From Rhodothermales bacterium (lineage in GTDB: Bacteria; Bacteroidota; Rhodothermia; Rhodothermales; VXPQ01), in assembly GCA_022825385.1 (NCBI GenBank), contig JAJDWX010000017.1:1-58827 (forward strand): a DNA stretch of 58,827 bases, written 5' to 3'. Each line of letters opens with the position of its first letter. Within the stretch, counting starts at the first letter, position 1. The translations under genes were made by a program, and so were the position numbers. The notes under the pieces were generated by a model. The model was given only the letters and a program-made list of their open reading frames with translations, did not search any database and was not told where the DNA came from. Below are positions 45,197 through 54,903 of this stretch, piece by piece.

Positions 45197-46180
45197 TCAA
45201 GGCTTTTCGCCGTCTATACGGATGTAGTCTGCCGCGCTGTCGCGCAGGCGATCCCGTTGATGTACGTACACCATGGTGGTCTCGATTTTCTTGTGGCGCG
45301 CATGCGATTGCACTTGCTGAATGGACGCCCCGGATTCGATGGCCAGCGTACAGCCCGTGTGGCGGAGCGAGTGCGCCCCGATTTCCTGGGGAAGGCCTGC
45401 CCGCCGCGCAGTACGATCCACGATGCCGTAGATAGAACGTTCCGAAAGGCGTTTCCCGAAACTGTTGTTGCTGAGCGAGCGCCAAAGCGGGCCGTCCGCA
45501 ATCTTGTAATACGCTTTCATGCGGTCGATTTCTTCCACGACATGCCCGGGAATTTTCACGTACTGATCGGCGCCGCCCTTCGTGTCGGGCAAATCGAGCA
45601 CCTGGTATTTTCCGAGCGTACGAATATCCTGCGCGTTCATGGCCGCGGCTTCGGAACGCCGCAGCACGCAGTGGAGGAGGGTGAGCAGCAGCGCCCGATC
45701 CCGGGGCGCCGAGCGGGCTTGCTTGCCGTCCGGGCCCGGGTTCGTCGCCGCGCGGATGAGCCGGCCGGCCTGTTCGGCGGTCAATACGATGCGGGCGCCG
45801 TCGCGGCCGCTTGATTTGCGGACCCGGCGCAGCACATGCCGGCTGGCCGGGTTTCTGGTCAATACGCCGAGGGCCACCAGCCATTCGCAAAACCCCCGAA
45901 TGGCTGCGATGCGGCGCTTGATGGTGGCGGGTTTGTAGCCGTTTTCTTCCATCTCGGCAATGTGCCGGTTGATATCGGCGAACGACAGTTCGCGCACCGT
46001 AACGGTATCCGCATGGTCGGATCCGAAGAAAGCGGATAAATCGTCTCCGTAGGCTTTGCGCGTCTGGGGGCGGTCGTAGCGGTCGAGAAACGCTTCGACG
46101 AGGTTGGCGTCCGGGCGAATAATGCCCGTGGCGACATCCATCAAAGCGATGGGCGAAAAATCCAAAGGTCTGGAAGCCAT
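45197..46180 (-). CDS. Tyrosine recombinase (Xer/phage integrase family)
   Basis: 327 residues. An N-terminal SAM-like core-binding domain (about 25-115: TRKAYGDDLSAFF ... ATIKRRIAAIRGFCEWLV) is followed by the catalytic domain with the full set: Arg174 (VLRRSEAAAM), Lys201 (DTKGG), His270 and Arg273 (HSLRHTG), His296 and the nucleophile Tyr305 (IETTMVYVH). Size and layout resemble single-protein Xer recombinases, but an element integrase is also possible. A dif-like palindrome lies 60 bp upstream of the start, and the accessory island begins directly beyond it. Confidence 0.92.
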   Translation of the reverse strand: MASRPLDFSPIALMDVATGIIRPDANLVEAFLDRYDRPQTRKAYGDDLSAFFGSDHADTVTVRELSFADINRHIAEMEENGYKPATIKRRIAAIRGFCEWLVALGVLTRNPASRHVLRRVRKSSGRDGARIVLTAEQAGRLIRAATNPGPDGKQARSAPRDRALLLTLLHCVLRRSEAAAMNAQDIRTLGKYQVLDLPDTKGGADQYVKIPGHVVEEIDRMKAYYKIADGPLWRSLSNNSFGKRLSERSIYGIVDRTARRAGLPQEIGAHSLRHTGCTLAIESGASIQQVQSHARHKKIETTMVYVHQRDRLRDSAADYIRIDGEKP

Positions 46181-46239
46181 AGCGCGGTGCGGTTGGATGT
46201 TTGTATTGGATCGGTGGCGGGTTTCGTAATCGTTATTTT

Positions 46240-46267
46240 AGTTCCGATAAGAACTGTTATCGGAAGT
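46240..46267. promoter_or_regulatory. dif-like recombination site upstream of the tyrosine recombinase
   Basis: Left arm AGTTCCGATAA (46240-46250), 6-bp centre GAACTG, right arm TTATCGGAAGT (46257-46267). The arms are inverted repeats matching at 10 of 11 positions. This is the exact 11-6-11 geometry of Xer dif sites, with the characteristic ATAA and TTAT flanking the centre. By eye each arm matches the E. coli XerC or XerD half-site at 7 of 11 positions. The neighbouring gene encodes a tyrosine recombinase. An autoregulatory operator is the main alternative reading. The rest of 46181-46442 holds no gene. Confidence 0.65.
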
Positions 46268-46442
46268 AGAGACAGTATACGGCCTCTGGAGCGGGTTGTC
46301 AAGGGGTTTTTTCGTTTGGAAACCGATTGCAGGCATTATATTACGCCCTGCGTTCTCATTTTCGTAACATTTGACGCTTGCGCGCCATAGCCCATAGCGG
46401 AACGCGATCACCAGAAAGCCCCCTGTCTGGAATCTAAAAAAG

Positions 46443-46865
46443 ATGAAAGAGCGGTTCATGCTCAAGGCCCTCGGGCTGCTCCTGATGGCGCTCAGCGCCC
46501 CCGATGTCGTGCAATGGCTGCTTGCATTATTCGAGGGGCGCGTCGGTTTCAGCACGAATCTGCTTTTGCCGCTGATTGGGGCCGGATTGTTTTATGCGCA
46601 TCCGGTATGGCGCCGGGCGGCAAGGTTGTATGTGGTCCTGTGCGGCCTTGCGCTGGTCACAGTAGCCGTGAGGACGTTCGCCGGATTCCCGGAGGTCGCA
46701 CGTTGGCTGGCGTTCATCGAACGCGATACCCTCGCATCCATTCCGCCTCCGTTTATAGCGCTGTATGCGCTCGCAACCCTGGGGCTGCTTGTCGGCAGTT
46801 ATGTATTCCTGCACAAGGCGGCTTTGGCGGACAAGCAGGCGGACCTGTCCAGCATTTCAGATTGA
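46443..46865 (+). CDS. Small four-helix membrane protein of unknown function
   Basis: 140 residues, with four hydrophobic segments (about 7-28, 36-55, 60-82, 100-122) and a short polar C-terminus (KAALADKQADLSSISD). I recognise no family. It is the first gene of the plus-strand accessory island, 175 bp from the dif-like site, and ends 25 bp before the type III restriction gene, so it probably shares a transcript with it. Either a membrane partner of the defence genes or an unrelated passenger is possible. Confidence 0.6.
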   Translation: MKERFMLKALGLLLMALSAPDVVQWLLALFEGRVGFSTNLLLPLIGAGLFYAHPVWRRAARLYVVLCGLALVTVAVRTFAGFPEVARWLAFIERDTLASIPPPFIALYALATLGLLVGSYVFLHKAALADKQADLSSISD

Positions 46866-46890
46866 GACGGAAGTTATCGGTGTAAATTAT

Positions 46891-49692
46891 ATGGCGCAGG
46901 CAACCATCGACCGGCTGATAATCAATTCCCCCTACCAGGAACCTGCGCGGCATTGGCGCTACGACAGGGCGTCCCGCCTTTTCGATCTTGCGGAGGGGCG
47001 GCGACCAGCCGGGTATGTTGTGGCTTCTCAGGATTCGAAAGCCTTTGACGACCCTGGCACATTTGTCCCCATTCCGCTGGTGAAGCAAATTCGCGCGCGC
47101 GTAAAGAATTGGCGCGACGCGGGCTATCCGGGCGTTACCGGCGTCACCCGTCGCCTGCTTCGACACTGGACAGATCCTGAGGAATTCGCCGAACGGCGCT
47201 TCTTTTTCTGTCAGATTGAGGCTGCCGAAACATTGATCTGGCTTGCGGAAGCACCCGACACAGAGAAAGTCGGCATTGATATTCCAACCGACGGGAGCAA
47301 TTTCCGGCGACTGTGCGCCAAGATGGCGACGGGCTCAGGCAAAACGGTGGTTATGGCCATGATCATCGCTTGGCACATTCTGAACAAGGTTGCTTATCCA
47401 CAGGATCGCCGCTTCGCCAAAAATATTCTTGTGATAGCGCCTGGCTTGACCGTCAAGAACCGTCTGGCGGTTCTTAAGCCCGCGCATACTGAAAGTTACT
47501 ACAAGGCCTTTCGCATCCTCCCCTCTCCTATGCTGGACAAACTCCGCCAGGGGAAGGTGCTTGTGCATAACTGGCATGTGCTCAACTGGGAAACCGAGGA
47601 GAAAATCGCCAAAAAGCGCAGCGTGGACAAACGCGGACCGAAAAGCAACGAAGCGTATGTTCGGGAAGTGCTTGGAGATATGGCCACCGCGCGAAACATT
47701 CTGGTTATCAACGACGAAGCGCATCATGCGTGGCGCCTGCCTGCCGGGTCGGGCGCCCGCGGAATTTCAAAAAGCGATATCGAACAAGCCACAAAATGGA
47801 TTGGCGGACTTGACCGAATCGACCAGGCTCGGGGCATTCTTGCCTGCTACGACTTTTCCGCCACGCCTTTCGTGCCGTCCGGCAAGCAAAGCTCGCAAGA
47901 AGCGCTGTTCGACTGGATCGTAAGCGATTTCGGCCTGAACGATGCTATCGAGGCGGGTCTGGTCAAAACGCCCCGCGTAGTGATCCGTGACGACGCCCTT
48001 CCCAACCCGCAAACCTACAAATCGCGCCTTTATCATATCTATAACGATCCCGAAGTAAAGGACGATCTGAATCGCAAGGCCGAGCCGGCCACGCCGCTCC
48101 CCGACCTTGTGCTGAATGGGTATCACCTGCTTGGTTATGACTGGCGCGAAACAGCGAAGCAATGGAAGGGTCAGGGGTTCAAGACCCCGCCGTCCATGAT
48201 TACCGTGGCAAATCGCACAGAGACCGCCGCGCGGGTCAAGCATTCTTTCGACAACGGTAAAATCCGTATCGAGGAGCTTTGCGATGCGGACCGAACGCTT
48301 CACATCGATTCGAAAGTACTTGGCGAGGCCGAAGCAGCCGACGAACCGATTGCCGAAATCGACGGAGAAGAGAATCGCGTAAACGGTCAATCTCGCAAGC
48401 TCACGAAAAAACAGCGAGCCGAGCTTTTGCGGCGGCAGGTAGACACGGTGGGCCAGGAAGGGAAACCCGGCGCGAATATCCAGAATGTGATTGCCGTCGG
48501 CATGCTATCGGAAGGCTGGGACGCCAGAACCGTAACCCACATCATGGGCCTGCGGGCGTTCGCCAGTCAGTTGCTATGCGAGCAGGTCGTGGGGCGCGGC
48601 CTGCGACGCACCGCGTATGAAACGAACCCGGAAACCGGCTTTTTCGAGCCGGAATACGTCAATGTTTTCGGGGTTCCCTTTACCTTTCTGCCGCACGAAT
48701 CGCAGGAGGGCGTGGTGCCTCCCCCTCCCAAACCGAAAACCGCTATCGAACCCGTTCCGGAAAAGGCGGCTTTCGAAATTCGGTGGCCCAATCTCGTTCG
48801 AATCGAGCACGTATTCCGTCCGCACTTGACGTTCGATCCGAAACAGGTGGCGCTGCTGGAATTGGACCCCGCAGGCATTGCCCGGATCGCCGATTTGGCT
48901 CCCGTGATTGAGGGCAAGCCGGATATCACGAAGATCGCTTCCATCGACCTGGATAACCTGGCCCGCGAGTTTCGTACGCAGCGGATTGTTTTCGAAACCG
49001 CAGCGCACGTATACGACCGGATGCTCCCGGACTGGCAGGGAAGCAGGGAATTTCTACTGGCCCAACTGGTGCGGCTCATAGACAAGTTCATCCGTTCTGA
49101 CAGAATTGTCGTTATATCCTCCCTGTTCAATCAGGACGACAGGAAAAAGCGTCTGCTCATTACGCTCAATATGAACAAGGTTGTCCAGCACATCTTTCAG
49201 GCGATTCATTTCGAAAACGTCGAAAAACTGGAACCGGTATTCGATACGGACCGCCCTATTCGCTCGACCGCAGACATGATGACCTGGCATTCCAGCAAGC
49301 CTTGCGAGCGAACCGAACGCAGCCATATCAATTTCTGCGTGTACGACAGCGCCTGGGAGGCAACGGAAGCCTTTGCGCTGGATAACAGCCCCTTTGTGGA
49401 GGCGTGGGCGAAGAACGACCATCTCGGATTCGAGGTGTTCTACGTATACCGCGGGGTGGTAAGGAAATATCGCCCCGATTTTATCGTGCGGCTGACTTCG
49501 GGCGATACGCTGGTTCTGGAAGTCAAAGGCAAAGACACCGAGCAGGATCGCGTCAAGCGCGGGTCCCTCGACGGGTGGACGCGCGCCGTCAACGAGCACG
49601 GCGGATTCGGGCGGTGGACCTGGGCCGTGTCGCGAAACCCCGGCGAAATTCACGATATTCTGGCGAAACACATGTGTGCCGAAAGTGTCTAA
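46891..49692 (+). CDS. res: Type III restriction enzyme Res subunit (SF2 helicase plus PD-(D/E)xK nuclease)
   Basis: 933 residues from ATG 46891. SF2 translocase motifs are in order: Walker A ATGSGKT (146-152), DEAH box at 275-278 (INDEAHHAW), motif III FSATPF, and motif VI QVVGRGLRR near residue 568. The C-terminal nuclease has Asp863 (RPDFIVRL) and Glu877-Val-Lys879 (LEVKGKD), the PD-ExK core. Together with Mod it would cleave DNA lacking methylation at paired inverted sites. The methyltransferase gene is not upstream as in classical mod-res operons but 2 kb downstream, after genes A and B and an IS fragment. The frame is intact. Confidence 0.93.
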   Translation: MAQATIDRLIINSPYQEPARHWRYDRASRLFDLAEGRRPAGYVVASQDSKAFDDPGTFVPIPLVKQIRARVKNWRDAGYPGVTGVTRRLLRHWTDPEEFAERRFFFCQIEAAETLIWLAEAPDTEKVGIDIPTDGSNFRRLCAKMATGSGKTVVMAMIIAWHILNKVAYPQDRRFAKNILVIAPGLTVKNRLAVLKPAHTESYYKAFRILPSPMLDKLRQGKVLVHNWHVLNWETEEKIAKKRSVDKRGPKSNEAYVREVLGDMATARNILVINDEAHHAWRLPAGSGARGISKSDIEQATKWIGGLDRIDQARGILACYDFSATPFVPSGKQSSQEALFDWIVSDFGLNDAIEAGLVKTPRVVIRDDALPNPQTYKSRLYHIYNDPEVKDDLNRKAEPATPLPDLVLNGYHLLGYDWRETAKQWKGQGFKTPPSMITVANRTETAARVKHSFDNGKIRIEELCDADRTLHIDSKVLGEAEAADEPIAEIDGEENRVNGQSRKLTKKQRAELLRRQVDTVGQEGKPGANIQNVIAVGMLSEGWDARTVTHIMGLRAFASQLLCEQVVGRGLRRTAYETNPETGFFEPEYVNVFGVPFTFLPHESQEGVVPPPPKPKTAIEPVPEKAAFEIRWPNLVRIEHVFRPHLTFDPKQVALLELDPAGIARIADLAPVIEGKPDITKIASIDLDNLAREFRTQRIVFETAAHVYDRMLPDWQGSREFLLAQLVRLIDKFIRSDRIVVISSLFNQDDRKKRLLITLNMNKVVQHIFQAIHFENVEKLEPVFDTDRPIRSTADMMTWHSSKPCERTERSHINFCVYDSAWEATEAFALDNSPFVEAWAKNDHLGFEVFYVYRGVVRKYRPDFIVRLTSGDTLVLEVKGKDTEQDRVKRGSLDGWTRAVNEHGGFGRWTWAVSRNPGEIHDILAKHMCAESV

Positions 49693-49722
49693 ATAAGGAA
49701 TGAACACACTGGATACTGTAGA

Positions 49723-49869
49723 GGTCGCTACGGCGCGCCGGATGTTTTCAATACGGACCAGGGGGCGCAGTTCACGTCGGAAGCGTTCACCGGCGCGCTG
49801 AAGGCGCACGGAGTGCGCATCTCGATGGACGGCAAGGGCCGCTGGCTCGATAACGTGTACATTGTATAA
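49723..49869 (+). pseudogene. IS3-family transposase (OrfB) fragment
   Basis: A stretch of about 48 codons encodes YGAPDVFNTDQGAQFTSEAF ... ISMDGKGRWLDNV, the central part of the DDE integrase core of IS3-family OrfB, including the Asp of TDQG. Neither the N-terminal half nor the remainder after DNV is present; the frame stops at 49867-49869. It is a decayed insertion scar between res and gene A. The element ends are not visible here. Confidence 0.85.
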
Positions 49870-49888
49870 GGGACAGCAAAAGCAGTCG

Positions 49889-50335
49889 ATGAAACACGGA
49901 GGCAACGATCCGAAACGCCGGATTGCAGAACCAGATGATTTTACCAGGGGCGAGTTGGATAGATTTGCCGAAGCTGCTCACTACAAGGGCAGAGCGTATC
50001 ACAAGACGAAGCCAGCTGATTACGGCTTCCATCCGTCTGTCAGCCCCCGCCCAGGGAAATCGGCTTGCGACGACATCCGGATTATTAAAAAGGCCGAGGC
50101 GGAACAACTCCTTCTATCAGGCTTTGCCCGTGGTATGGTCAGCACTTTCTGTCAGGGAAGCCTCAATCTGCCCAAGTTTGTGTGGGCTGTGGATGACGAT
50201 GGCGAGGCGTACGAAGCAAAACTTGATGGAGACGGACTAAACTACCACGGATACCGAATCGACGAATATAGAGACCCCGGCTCACGCAAGATGCGCAAAC
50301 AAGTACTAAAGGCATGGAAACGACGGAGCAATTGA
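49889..50335 (+). CDS. Uncharacterised small basic protein, island gene A (copy 1)
   Basis: 148 residues from ATG 49889 (MKHGGNDPKRR). I do not recognise the family. The centre is highly conserved with copy 2: GRAYHKTKPADYGFHPSVSPRP, CDDIRIIKKAEAEQLLLSGFARGMVS, then LPKFVWAVDDDGEAYEAKLDGDG, YHGYRIDE and a basic end MRKQVLKAWKRR. The last part (FVWAVDxxGExYEA...YHGY) looks like an alpha/beta core as in small nucleases or toxins, but no catalytic set can be assigned. It overlaps gene B by 22 bp. A gap-free hand alignment to the second copy at 57938 gives about 71% identity over all 148 residues. Confidence 0.7.
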   Translation: MKHGGNDPKRRIAEPDDFTRGELDRFAEAAHYKGRAYHKTKPADYGFHPSVSPRPGKSACDDIRIIKKAEAEQLLLSGFARGMVSTFCQGSLNLPKFVWAVDDDGEAYEAKLDGDGLNYHGYRIDEYRDPGSRKMRKQVLKAWKRRSN

Positions 50336-51675
50336 AATTCACGCTTGTCCCGGAAACGCTGGAAGAAGGCTCTCCAGAAGAGAAAGCGAGTTTCGGCATG
50401 GTCACCATCGCCGCAAACGGACATGTACTGACCGAAGGCATCGCTTTGCTCGAGCACAACGAGCTCTTCAGCGGCCCGCATGTTTCCGGCTACCATATGA
50501 CCGAGTGGCTGTTGTGGAACTGGTGGCGGCTTCTTTGGGAACCCCGTCCTGCAGGCGTGGATAACGACGAGGACAACGACGATACGTGGTTCGAATGGGT
50601 CTTTGCGCACAATATGTCGTCCATCGGCGAGGGCTACCTGTGGCCGGACATCGAAATAGCGTCCGACGGGGTACTGATGCGCTTGACCTCTTCACGGACT
50701 GGGAGCCCGGACGAAAAGGTATTTCGTTACCTGGGGGCGCCCCGGTCCGAGACCATCACGGTCGAGGCATTCAAGAAGGCCGTAGACGAATTCGCCCATG
50801 TCGTGCTGGAACGCCTTGACGAAGAAAGTATCCTCAATACCAACCTGCATGTCATCTGGCGCTATCTGGAACGGGAACGTGACGACGAGGGAGCGGCGGC
50901 TTTTCGCCGCATGGAGGCGATACTGGGGCACGACCCCGGCAAGGGAGACGACAACGAGATACGGGAATGCCTTGCGGACGCTACAAAATTAGGACACGAT
51001 ACGATAACCGAATTGGCAGCCCATACAGGACAACGTAAGGATCGCCCGGTACGAGCATCGGAATTGGAAGTAAGCGCCCGGCGAGCCGGGTTCGACATGC
51101 GCGTCCGCGACGCCGTGCGACTCGGCCCCGCGGAAAGCATTCCCGAGTGGGGCACTGACAAGGCTTGGCGTATTGGTGTCGCCATGGCGCGGGCTGTGCG
51201 ACAGGCCGGGGGTTTGAATGGTCAACCGATCAAAAACACCAAGTTGACGGACCTGGCAGGAACCTCCAGAAAGGTGGTAGAAAATATCAACCGAACAACG
51301 GGCAACATTTCTTTTGTGCTGGATGGCGAAAACGGGTGCTCGCGCATCGCACTACGGTCGAAATGGGAAACGGGCAGGCGCTTCGATCTGGCGCGGCTAT
51401 TGGCGGACAAACTGTGCTTCAACCATATTAACGAACCCCTGCATCCGGTTACCCGGTCGTATACCTACCGGCAGAAGCTGCAGCGTGCGTTCGCCGCCGA
51501 GCTATTGGCGCCCATCGAAGCAGTAGATGATTTTCTGGATGGCGACACATCCGAAGAAAAACAAAACGACGCTGGCAGGCACTTTAACGTCTCCCCGCTA
51601 ACGATACAATCCCTGCTTGTCAACAACGGTCTCATAAACCGGGAAGAGGCGTTAGATATTATTGATCGGACGTAA
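50314..51675 (+). CDS. Uncharacterised protein with ImmA/IrrE-like C-terminus, island gene B (copy 1)
   Basis: 453 residues. The N-terminal part (1-200) has a distinctive SGYHMTEWLLWNWWRLLWEPRPAG ... WVFAHNMSSIGEGYLWPDIEIASDG signature that I cannot name. The C-terminal part resembles ImmA/IrrE regulators: RRFDLARLLADKLCF aligns where these have the RFTLAHELGH zinc motif, and RAFAAELLAPIEAVDDF ... AGRHFNVSPLTIQSLLVNNGLI matches their end. The HExxH zinc site is absent (LARLLAD instead), so protease activity is unlikely. The gene starts inside A and ends 21 bp before mod, placing it firmly in the operon. A truncated second copy is at 58363. Confidence 0.72.
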   Translation: METTEQLKFTLVPETLEEGSPEEKASFGMVTIAANGHVLTEGIALLEHNELFSGPHVSGYHMTEWLLWNWWRLLWEPRPAGVDNDEDNDDTWFEWVFAHNMSSIGEGYLWPDIEIASDGVLMRLTSSRTGSPDEKVFRYLGAPRSETITVEAFKKAVDEFAHVVLERLDEESILNTNLHVIWRYLERERDDEGAAAFRRMEAILGHDPGKGDDNEIRECLADATKLGHDTITELAAHTGQRKDRPVRASELEVSARRAGFDMRVRDAVRLGPAESIPEWGTDKAWRIGVAMARAVRQAGGLNGQPIKNTKLTDLAGTSRKVVENINRTTGNISFVLDGENGCSRIALRSKWETGRRFDLARLLADKLCFNHINEPLHPVTRSYTYRQKLQRAFAAELLAPIEAVDDFLDGDTSEEKQNDAGRHFNVSPLTIQSLLVNNGLINREEALDIIDRT

Positions 51676-51696
51676 GTAAACGCCTGTTTGCAAGCC

Positions 51697-54231
51697 ATGC
51701 CGAAAAAGAAATCCATTGAAAGCTACGCGCACACCGACAAGGAGCGTACGAACAACCCGCCCGTCGGCCTGGTAACGCCTGAAACCGATCAGGATCAAGG
51801 CAAGAAAGCGTATGCGCACGATCCCCATATCGACCCGCAACTCGTCTGGGCCGGTAAGGCCGAGCATACTTCGTTCGACGTCCCGACCGTATCGCTGCAT
51901 GTGCACGAACGCATAGATCCGCGTACGATTATCGAGGCTACGCGCAAACGCAATGGCGCCCTGCCCCAGCCGTCGTTATTCGACGCGACGGAAGAAAATC
52001 CCCCGCTTCGGCAGGCCATCGAGTTCTATCGGCATAAGCATAACTGGACCAACCGCCTTGTCGCGGGCGATAGCCTGCTTGTGATGAACAGCTTGCTGGA
52101 AAAGGAAGGGCTTGGCGGGCAGGTACAAATGATTTACATAGACCCGCCCTATGGAATCAGTTACGGCTCGAATTTTCAGCCTTTTGTGCATCGCCGCGAG
52201 GTGGTCGATGGCAAGGACGACGACCTGACCGCCGAACCGGAACAGATCCGCGCCTTTCGTGACACTTGGGAGATGGGCATTCATTCCTACCTGGCGTATC
52301 TCCGGGACCGGCTTCTGCTCTCCCGGGAATTGTTGACGGAAAGCGGTTCCTGTTTCGTGCAGATTGGCGACGAAAATATCCACCGGGTGGGCATGGTGAT
52401 GGACGAAATTTTCGGCGCACAGAATCGTATAGCCACCATATCCTTCGCCACGACGAGCGGCAGTTCCGCCTCTACCCTGCCGCAGGTGGCCGACTACCTG
52501 CTCTGGTATGCAAGGGATAAAAAGAAAGTAAAATACCGGCAGATATATGAAACCCTGACGCGCAGTGAGATAATCGATTTCTTCAGTTCCTACGTCATGG
52601 TGGAATTACCGGATGGCACGTCCCGAAAACTCACCAGGGAAGAACGCTTCGACCCCGACGCAGCACTGCCTGAAGGGGCCCGCATTTATCGGCGCACCGG
52701 GCTGGATTCGCAAGGGGCTTCTACAACAGGTCGCTCCGAACCTTATGAATGGAACGGCAGGGTATTTCCTTGTGCGAACAACCGACAATGGTCCATCTCC
52801 AAAGAGGGCATGGATCGCCTGGCCGAGTTGGGCAGACTGGAAGCGCTCGACGGTCGGGAGTCGCTCATGTGGAAAAAATACGAAAATGAAGTGCCGGGCC
52901 GGCGTATCAACAATGTCTGGCCAACCCAGATGTATCCGAGCGCTAAATCCTATGTGGTGGAGACCTCCACGAAGGCCATCCAGCGTTGCCTGCTGATGAC
53001 CACCGATCCTGGCGATCTCGTGCTGGATCCCACCTGCGGCAGTGGAACCACCGCCTTTGTCGCCGAGCAATGGGGTCGGCGATGGCTCACGTGCGATACC
53101 TCGCGGGTTGCAATCACACTGGCAAAACGGCGGCTGATGACTGCACACTTCGACTATTATGAACTGGCATATCCTGACGAGGGAGTGGGCAGCGGTTTCC
53201 GTTACAAGACGGTCCCGAAGGTTTCTCCCAAAGTGCTCATAGGCGAGGAATCACAGTCCGACATCATCCTCTATGATCAGGCCGTGGAAGACAGAAAGAA
53301 GTCTCGTGTCACGGGCCCATTCACCGTAGAAGCCGTACCTGCCCCGGCGGTAAAGCCACTGGACGATATTCAGGATGTACCCCCCTCCCCTGCCGACGAC
53401 TCGGTTGCCCGTTCCGGAGAAACGATCCGCCAAAGCGATTGGCGCGACGAATTGTACAAGACCGGCATTCGAGGGAAGGCCGGACAGCGCATTTCCTTTG
53501 TCCGGCTGGAACCGCTGCCCGGTTTTCAGTGGCTGCACGCAGACGGAGAAACGCGCCCGGACGATGCCGCAACGCCTTCCGAACGAGTGGTTATTTCCTT
53601 CGGCCCGGATCATGCCCCGCTGGAGCAACGCCAGGTCGCGCTGGCCATTGAAGATGCACAAAATCTCGTTCCCAAGCCCAAAATCATCGCCTTCGCTGCT
53701 TTTCAGTTCGACCCGGAGGCAGCGAAAGACATCGACGAGACCAATTGGCCCGGCGTAATGCTCCTCAAGGCGCAAATGAACGCGGACCTGCTGACGGAAG
53801 ACCTGAAGAAAGAACGTTCCAGCAACGAAAGTTTCTGGCTCATTGGCCAACCGGACGTAGAACTGGAGACGATTTCGTATGGCGAGCACGCAGGCAAACT
53901 GCGCGTCTCTGTTCTTGGGTTCGATTACTACAACACCAAAACCGGCAAGTTGGAATCCGGCGGATCCGACCGGATCGCCGTATGGATGCTGGATCCCGAT
54001 TACGATGGCCGTAGCTTGTTTCCCCACCAGGTTTTCTTTCCTTTGGCTGGCCCCAAGGACGGCTGGACTCGCCTTGCGCGCAATCTCAAGGCCGAGATCG
54101 ACGAAAGCCTGATAGAAGCCTATCGCGGCACGACCTCCCTCCCCTTCGAGCCGGGCGAACACCGCCGAGTGGCGGTCAAGATTGTGGACGACCGGGGTAT
54201 TGAGAGCTTGAAAATTGTGGAGGTGGGGTGA
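51697..54231 (+). CDS. mod: Type III-like DNA adenine methyltransferase Mod
   Basis: 844 residues from ATG 51697. Motif order is beta-class: the catalytic DPPY at 149-152 (MIYIDPPYGISYG) precedes the SAM-binding DPTCGSGTTAF beginning at Asp444. The section between and the C-terminal 330 residues would hold target recognition. Residues about 555-600 form a Pro/Asp-rich linker. It is expected to methylate the N6 of adenine in an asymmetric site and to guide the Res subunit. A TTG at 51688 is an alternative start. The stop TGA shares a base with the ATG of the TIR-domain gene (TGATG). Confidence 0.93.
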   Translation: MPKKKSIESYAHTDKERTNNPPVGLVTPETDQDQGKKAYAHDPHIDPQLVWAGKAEHTSFDVPTVSLHVHERIDPRTIIEATRKRNGALPQPSLFDATEENPPLRQAIEFYRHKHNWTNRLVAGDSLLVMNSLLEKEGLGGQVQMIYIDPPYGISYGSNFQPFVHRREVVDGKDDDLTAEPEQIRAFRDTWEMGIHSYLAYLRDRLLLSRELLTESGSCFVQIGDENIHRVGMVMDEIFGAQNRIATISFATTSGSSASTLPQVADYLLWYARDKKKVKYRQIYETLTRSEIIDFFSSYVMVELPDGTSRKLTREERFDPDAALPEGARIYRRTGLDSQGASTTGRSEPYEWNGRVFPCANNRQWSISKEGMDRLAELGRLEALDGRESLMWKKYENEVPGRRINNVWPTQMYPSAKSYVVETSTKAIQRCLLMTTDPGDLVLDPTCGSGTTAFVAEQWGRRWLTCDTSRVAITLAKRRLMTAHFDYYELAYPDEGVGSGFRYKTVPKVSPKVLIGEESQSDIILYDQAVEDRKKSRVTGPFTVEAVPAPAVKPLDDIQDVPPSPADDSVARSGETIRQSDWRDELYKTGIRGKAGQRISFVRLEPLPGFQWLHADGETRPDDAATPSERVVISFGPDHAPLEQRQVALAIEDAQNLVPKPKIIAFAAFQFDPEAAKDIDETNWPGVMLLKAQMNADLLTEDLKKERSSNESFWLIGQPDVELETISYGEHAGKLRVSVLGFDYYNTKTGKLESGGSDRIAVWMLDPDYDGRSLFPHQVFFPLAGPKDGWTRLARNLKAEIDESLIEAYRGTTSLPFEPGEHRRVAVKIVDDRGIESLKIVEVG

Positions 54232-54869
54232 TGCCGAGACCGAGTAAGAAAAAAGCGATGGAGCTCATCCAGAAATCTTTGTTCGGAATAAATGAATTCA
54301 AAATATTAGCCGAGGATTATTATGATTTGGACGATTCTGTGGAGTTCCGTACATGGTACAGAGATACTGAAATAACAATTAAAACAATTTTTAGTAACCA
54401 AGATGGACATGTCCATGAGTTTCTTGAATGTTTTCACCTTGCAGATGATGATATAGATGCCATGAGGCGTGCTGAAGCTGTTTTAGAATCAATGTTTAAT
54501 GAGGTCAATGAGCACTGGGATGATAACCTTCCGATACAAAGATCTTCGCCTACGAAAAGAACTATACAGACAGATACGAAAAAAGTATTCGTCATCCACG
54601 GCAGGGACGAAGGTACTCGTGCAATGGTGGCGGGCTTCCTCAAACAATTAGAGATCGAACCCGTGATACTTTCCGAACAGTCGAGTCAAGGTCGCACCAT
54701 CATCGAAAAATTCGAGAAACATGCGAATGTCGGATTTGCCGTGGCTCTACTGACTCCAGACGACACTGGATCACTTAAGGGAGCCAGGGGCAAATCAAAT
54801 CCACGTGCCCGACAAAACGTGATTTTCGAACTGGGCTTCTTCATCGGAAGGCTTGGACGAGAACGTGTA
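54231..54869 (+). pseudogene. TIR-domain (PF10137-like) effector, 5' part, interrupted by an insertion sequence
   Basis: Codons 1-213 of a predicted nucleotide-binding TIR-like protein related to the CAP12/Pycsar effector TIR family. The first 115 residues are an unassigned helical domain. The TIR part starts with KVFVIHGRDEGTRAMVAGFLKQL, continues EQSSQGRTIIEKFEKHANVGFAVALLTPDD and ends ARQNVIFELGFFIGRLGRERV. Glu200 in VIFELGFF is the likely NADase glutamate. The frame then reads eight codons into the inserted element and stops at 54893. The remaining 49 codons lie at 56495-56644. ATG 54231 overlaps the mod stop. Local GC is clearly lower than in mod. Confidence 0.9.
54862..54869. repeat. 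Left copy of the 8-bp target-site duplication
   Basis: AACGTGTA directly abuts the left end of the IS256-family element; the identical octamer at 56487-56494 abuts the right end. Eight-base duplications are usual for IS256. Confidence 0.9.
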
Positions 54870-54903
54870 GGGGGTGTCCAGAAAACTGTGTAATTTAACC
54901 TTA

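Follow-up and report, generated by a model that had tools for sequence, protein, structure and literature searches.

The 58,827-nt stretch of Rhodothermales bacterium DNA analysed here, referred to as the window, contains at positions 46240–46267 a 28-bp sequence that is very probably a chromosome dimer resolution site (dif), and the adjacent gene encodes Xer1, its putative single recombinase. The single copy of the site, its conservation, arm symmetry and position relative to the GC skew, together with the lack of XerC/XerD in the sampled genomes of the order, point to the chromosomal dif of a single-recombinase system. Linkage of site and gene lends further support to this reading, which the first-pass annotation had put forward. 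The features concerned are the following:

45197–46180, minus strand: xer1, encoding Xer1 (P0001), a 327-aa tyrosine recombinase with catalytic R174, K201, H270, R273, H296 and Y305
46240–46267, minus strand (as read by the gene): dif-like recombination site, near-symmetric, with arms 46240–46250 and 46257–46267 and spacer 46251–46256
46302–46297 (TTGACA) and 46279–46274 (TATACT), minus strand: sigma-70-like promoter with a 17-bp spacer, a consensus match conserved in the genus, reading through the site into xer1
46233–46318, minus strand: site-plus-promoter block shared by every member of the genus, beyond which the DNA diverges on both sides

The 28-mer, AGTTCCGATAA-GAACTG-TTATCGGAAGT, has the build of a dif, i.e. 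about 28 bp with inverted 11-bp arms around a centre of 6–8 bp. Its arms of 11 bp each are symmetric at 10 of 11 positions and enclose a 6-bp spacer, and the ATAA/TTAT edges that had been described along with this 11-6-11 Xer geometry are present. It lies upstream of xer1, 59 bp before the ATG (46180), in agreement with the earlier estimate of about 60 bp. The recombinase had also been credited with all catalytic residues; when aligned to E. coli XerD, its six positions proved intact, and the R-K-H-R-H-Y set is retained in all 16 aligned orthologs outside the Salinibacter group. With up to three mismatches allowed, the pattern did not occur in shuffles of the window, and for its core, GATAA-N6-TTATC, 0.01 chance occurrences are expected per window. 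A search of the own assembly (3.02 Mb, 49 contigs) for second or multiple copies, again with up to three mismatches, returned the 28-mer once; like a dif, it is thus single per chromosome, in this genome as in the genus.

All six genomes of the genus hold one site each, always just upstream of the orthologous xer1, and four of the six sites have perfect arm symmetry. Conservation extends across the order: the exact GATAA-N6-TTATC was found upstream of Xer1 at 34 loci of Rhodothermales, at distances from about 40 bp to 1.4 kb, and two further orthologs with flanking DNA (L019, L022) have no core upstream. The outer arms differ between genera with symmetry retained. Over 30 sites, the outer six arm positions were symmetric in 112 of 180 cases vs. 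77.9 ± 6.0 after shuffling, in which right arms were dealt randomly among the sites and kinship between sites was ignored; 0 of 10,000 shuffles did as well. Such change of sequence under retained symmetry is expected if two copies of one protein bind the site. In some genera the arms are less symmetric (6/11), which would leave room for a second protein on one arm. In Rhodothermus the gene is not beside the site, the distance being about 5 kb in R. marinus and 75 kb in G007.

Close orthologs of Xer1 (E ≤ 1e-45) were detected in 34 of the 117 sampled genomes of the class, all within the order of the window; relatives that could be named are Rhodothermales MAGs, Roseithermus sacchariphilus, Longimonas halophila, Rhodothermus sp. 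and Rubricoccaceae. Distant relatives (24–36% identity) are few outside the order. One of them, from a candidate division WOR-3 MAG (L250, 36% identity), has ATTTCCGATAA-N6-TTATCGGAAAG, almost the site of the window, 1134 bp upstream. The idea that the 28-mer is the ancestral dif of the whole phylum was rejected, as no exact match was found outside the order and the 2-mismatch matches there look like chance, a reversed-pattern control having matched as well. At three loci, each from a different genus (L017, L021, L024), an HNH-nuclease-like ORF was apparently inserted between site and recombinase, as judged by eye. Adjacent to Xer1 paralogues within the genus (L240, L241, L243; 45–48% identity) there is a GC-rich 11-6-11 hairpin, GCCCCCGTTGC-N6-GCAGCGGGGGC, which is present in several copies per genome and is cassette-like (G003:C1:100742 and 102222, G003:C22:10530 and 13275).

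For the position relative to the replication terminus, five single-contig relatives were used, the assembly of the window itself being in 49 contigs, and GC skew was sampled at 20 points per genome. With dnaA as the origin, the site is located at 0.605 in G002 (skew switch at 0.57–0.62), 0.459 in G004 (0.43–0.48), 0.531 in Roseithermus, G012 (0.48–0.53), 0.476 in G016 (0.46–0.51) and 0.489 in G007 (0.475–0.525). In all five, the 5% interval that contains the site also holds the switch or borders on it, so the proposed relation of the site to the GC-skew inflection was borne out, as is required of a dif. The unbalanced chromosome of G002 is the strongest terminus case. The flip in G007 was placed within 2 kb of the site, while the gene, 75 kb away, sits in unswitched DNA. 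R. marinus (G021) is an exception, with local GC skew that does not flip at the site. Two DnaA proteins above the family cut-off occur per genome in the genome of the window (contigs C4 and C32), in G002 and G004, and also in G018, G028 and G058; the second DnaA in the genus of the window lacks the N-terminal part of the model.

Each of the 72 genomes sampled from the phylum outside the order has a XerD-grade protein (71 over the cut-off and one at 276 bits), and most of these genomes have a second, XerC-like protein. Inside the order, canonical XerD was found in none of 22 genomes, with the best match at about E = 1e-53, and the check for another XerCD likewise gave no canonical XerC/XerD in the genomes sampled. 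Across the order there is a second Xer homologue, Xer2, located in the genome of the window on contig C29 (L191 3242–4222, minus strand) and elsewhere at L192–L200, L203 and L206. Both of its catalytic arginines are replaced in 12 of 12 aligned genomes (GLSEI or GLGEI, and SLTHT), one of which also lacks the tyrosine, and Xer2 is probably a conserved but inactive tyrosine recombinase. Given the lack of XerD in the order and of the arginines in Xer2, Xer1 is the sole conserved competent candidate found where it is present. Larger genomes carry other integrases besides Xer1. FtsK with a gamma domain was found in 10 of 10 genomes tested.

With its Phage_int_SAM_1 and Phage_integrase domains, Xer1 is a simple tyrosine recombinase that scores far under the cut-offs of the XerC (115.5 vs. 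335.15 bits), XerD (108.7 vs. 329.6), archaeal XerA (99.9 vs. 220) and XerS (42.9 vs. 267) models. It is accordingly assigned neither to XerA nor to a XerC/XerD pair, for which two active recombinases above the family cut-offs were looked for and not found. What it has in common with the single-recombinase kind of Xer system is one competent Xer, a gene-linked site of its own and FtsK with a gamma domain, on which it would presumably depend. Trees placed Xer1, the plasmid proteins, X3 (both described below) and XerC/D in separate groups, with sister relationships not resolved.

XerS/difSL of streptococci and lactococci consists of one recombinase with its site immediately beside the gene, at the terminus (PMC5357621, PMC3025954), and Xer1 is alike in all these respects. 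However, XerS is 356 aa long and the centre of the 31-bp difSL measures 11 bp (PMC5357621), vs. the 28 bp, 6-bp spacer and 327 aa found here. The comparison with XerS drawn in the first-pass annotation thus holds for the manner of working and not for membership, given the XerS score and the centre of the site. XerH/difH of Helicobacter and Campylobacter also combines one recombinase with a site near the gene, and resolves dimers in dependence on FtsK (PMC5357621). XerH has 354–362 aa and difH arms are AGTTATGAAAA (PMC5357621); Xer1 matches the XerH structure only over its C-terminal part and its site has different arms, which keeps it out of this family as well. XerL/dif of the Legionellales is, like Xer1, a lineage-specific single recombinase, one that had escaped homology searches, and comes from a different order in another phylum (PMC9765430, compared by description only). 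The dif of XerC/XerD shares with the Xer1 site 28 bp, 11-6-11 geometry, ATAA/TTAT edges and position at the terminus, whereas Xer1 differs from XerC/XerD in being one recombinase instead of two, with near-symmetric arms, a gene that adjoins the site and a separate place in the trees. Judged from sequence, Xer1/dif belongs to neither XerS/difSL nor XerH/difH but would resemble both in its manner of working.

The promoter upstream of xer1 (TTGACA-17-TATACT) matches the consensus at 11 of 12 positions; relative to it, the site falls around +1 of xer1 transcription. In several other genera a −35 box stands just before the site, and a −10 box, TATTAT, is made up of the spacer end and the TTAT of the right arm, again as consensus matches. 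The site thus abuts or overlaps a predicted sigma-70-like promoter of the recombinase itself. With the dif inside the xer1 promoter or at its start, Xer1 that is bound there probably holds down transcription of its own gene, i.e. xer1 would be autoregulated.

These observations invite a reading in which the palindrome is only an operator, through which Xer1 represses the promoter of its gene, and dimer resolution, if there is any, takes place elsewhere. It agrees with the position of the site against or across a promoter, seen in the window and several further genera, and with Salinibacter-type genomes, which keep the site upstream of a dead Xer1; there, binding alone could remain at the site, since Xer1 has lost catalysis. 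Against it stand the location of the site at the GC-skew switch, in G007 75 kb from the gene, the plasmid copy without an annotated recombinase beside it, and the search of Xer1-bearing genomes, which found no second conserved Xer that is competent; we regard this explanation as very unlikely. Equally improbable is a two-protein system resembling XerCD, in which Xer1 and a second protein, perhaps the dead paralogue Xer2, would each occupy one arm. It could account for the presence of Xer2 alongside Xer1 in every aligned genome and for the asymmetric arms of some genera, but not readily for the missing arginines of Xer2 or for the perfect arm symmetry in four of the six genomes of the genus.

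The last alternative is a mobile-element integration module, with Xer1 as integrase, the 28-mer as att site and the right-hand island as cargo. The right flank does carry type III restriction-modification-like and TIR genes that are not conserved in relatives, and related recombinases reside on plasmids; however, the genome contains no second site, and this unit of gene and site recurs, at the terminus, throughout the genus and in many families, which makes this explanation extremely unlikely. The first-pass annotation had the island start right behind the site. Non-conserved defence-type genes indeed lie beyond, but the DNA at 46436–46843 is still conserved in three relatives. As no second copy was found in the genome, and the site is intact and single across the genus members searched, the related idea of an integration hotspot for elements that exploit Xer was dropped. 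The genes at 46765–54893 of the window are type III restriction-modification-like and end with a CAP12/Pycsar-type TIR gene, and are not conserved in the genus.

With a dif and its single recombinase as the preferred reading, the following mechanism can be proposed. Each dif would be occupied by two Xer1 protomers on its two near-identical arms. Once sister chromosomes have been joined into a dimer by homologous recombination, FtsK would bring the two terminus copies of dif together at the septum, and a Xer1 tetramer would exchange strands across the 6-bp spacer, giving two monomers. Xer1 bound at dif would also limit xer1 transcription. We infer binding, strand exchange, FtsK dependence, dimer resolution and autoregulation from the sequence features described above.

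Sites of the same kind were found on plasmids. Plasmid pRMAR01 of R. marinus has a copy whose arms equal those of the chromosomal site but whose spacer differs; no recombinase is annotated in the stretch around it. Among plasmid-borne relatives of Xer1, those that score best (about 28–34% identity) are from Pseudomonas, Polaromonas, Stutzerimonas, Sphingobium, Methylocystis and others; they have the same kind of site, but theirs is on plasmids and not at a chromosome terminus. An exact GATAA-N6-TTATC palindrome was observed upstream at 7 of 10 proteobacterial plasmid loci, and one with a single core mismatch at 1 more (L286–L290, L292, L297, L298). These recombinases and their palindromes may form a family of modules for plasmid multimer resolution. 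A direct sister relationship to Xer1 is not resolved (tree support 79/89), and a plasmid-type origin of Xer1 is suggestive only. Exploitation of the site by viruses was considered and rejected: among 21 IMG/VR contigs with TTCCGATAA-N6-TTATCGGAA, most of them low-GC, the four examined with Pfam encode proteins of tailed phages (terminase, head-tail connector, capsid), and a recombinase, of another kind, is present in only two contigs. In L264, L268, L272, L280 and other low-GC tailed-phage contigs the motif is near structural genes.

Salinibacter-type genomes retain the site with a catalytically dead Xer1, and a recombinase of a different class, in which the catalytic residues are present, follows downstream. 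At L201 (3768–6300), which we take to be Salinibacter ruber, and at L202, Xer1 lacks several catalytic residues and a GATAA-type site lies upstream; the locus is at 0.53 from dnaA. Relatives of the downstream recombinase, termed X3, occur in genomes of three families without close Xer1. In two genomes of one of these families a perfect or near-perfect CATAA-type palindrome, ATGCAACATAA-N6-TTATGTTGCAT, is located by the X3 gene (L204 3186–3213, L205 4460–4487), and X3 with this palindrome is perhaps a second replacement dif system. A reasonable reading of these sequences is that the dimer resolvase may have been replaced repeatedly within one order. A broader scenario seems to us plausible, if somewhat short of likely: in much of Rhodothermales, XerCD would have given way to a mobile or plasmid-resolution type of recombinase with a recombination site that also serves as its own promoter/operator, making dimer resolution a self-regulating one-gene module, and some lineages would have replaced it again by a second enzyme class, leaving dead Xer paralogues.

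Dimer resolution is close to universal, and the XerC/XerD pair is near-universal. To our knowledge, replacements of XerCD are known from few groups only, namely XerS, XerH, XerL and archaeal XerA. Our literature search, in which subscription papers were mostly not covered, found no paper on Xer/dif in Rhodothermus or Salinibacter, and a one-enzyme system in place of XerC/XerD across much of Rhodothermales is apparently undescribed. Xer1/dif would add to the known cases a replacement across much of an order, including Rhodothermus and Roseithermus. It is an open question (discussed in PMC8138268) whether domestication of mobile-element recombinases can give rise to host Xer proteins, and the presence of the same kind of site beside the best-scoring plasmid relatives bears on it. 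The overlap of site and promoter makes autoregulation of xer1 directly testable, and the site can serve as a terminus marker for Xer1-bearing Rhodothermales genomes.
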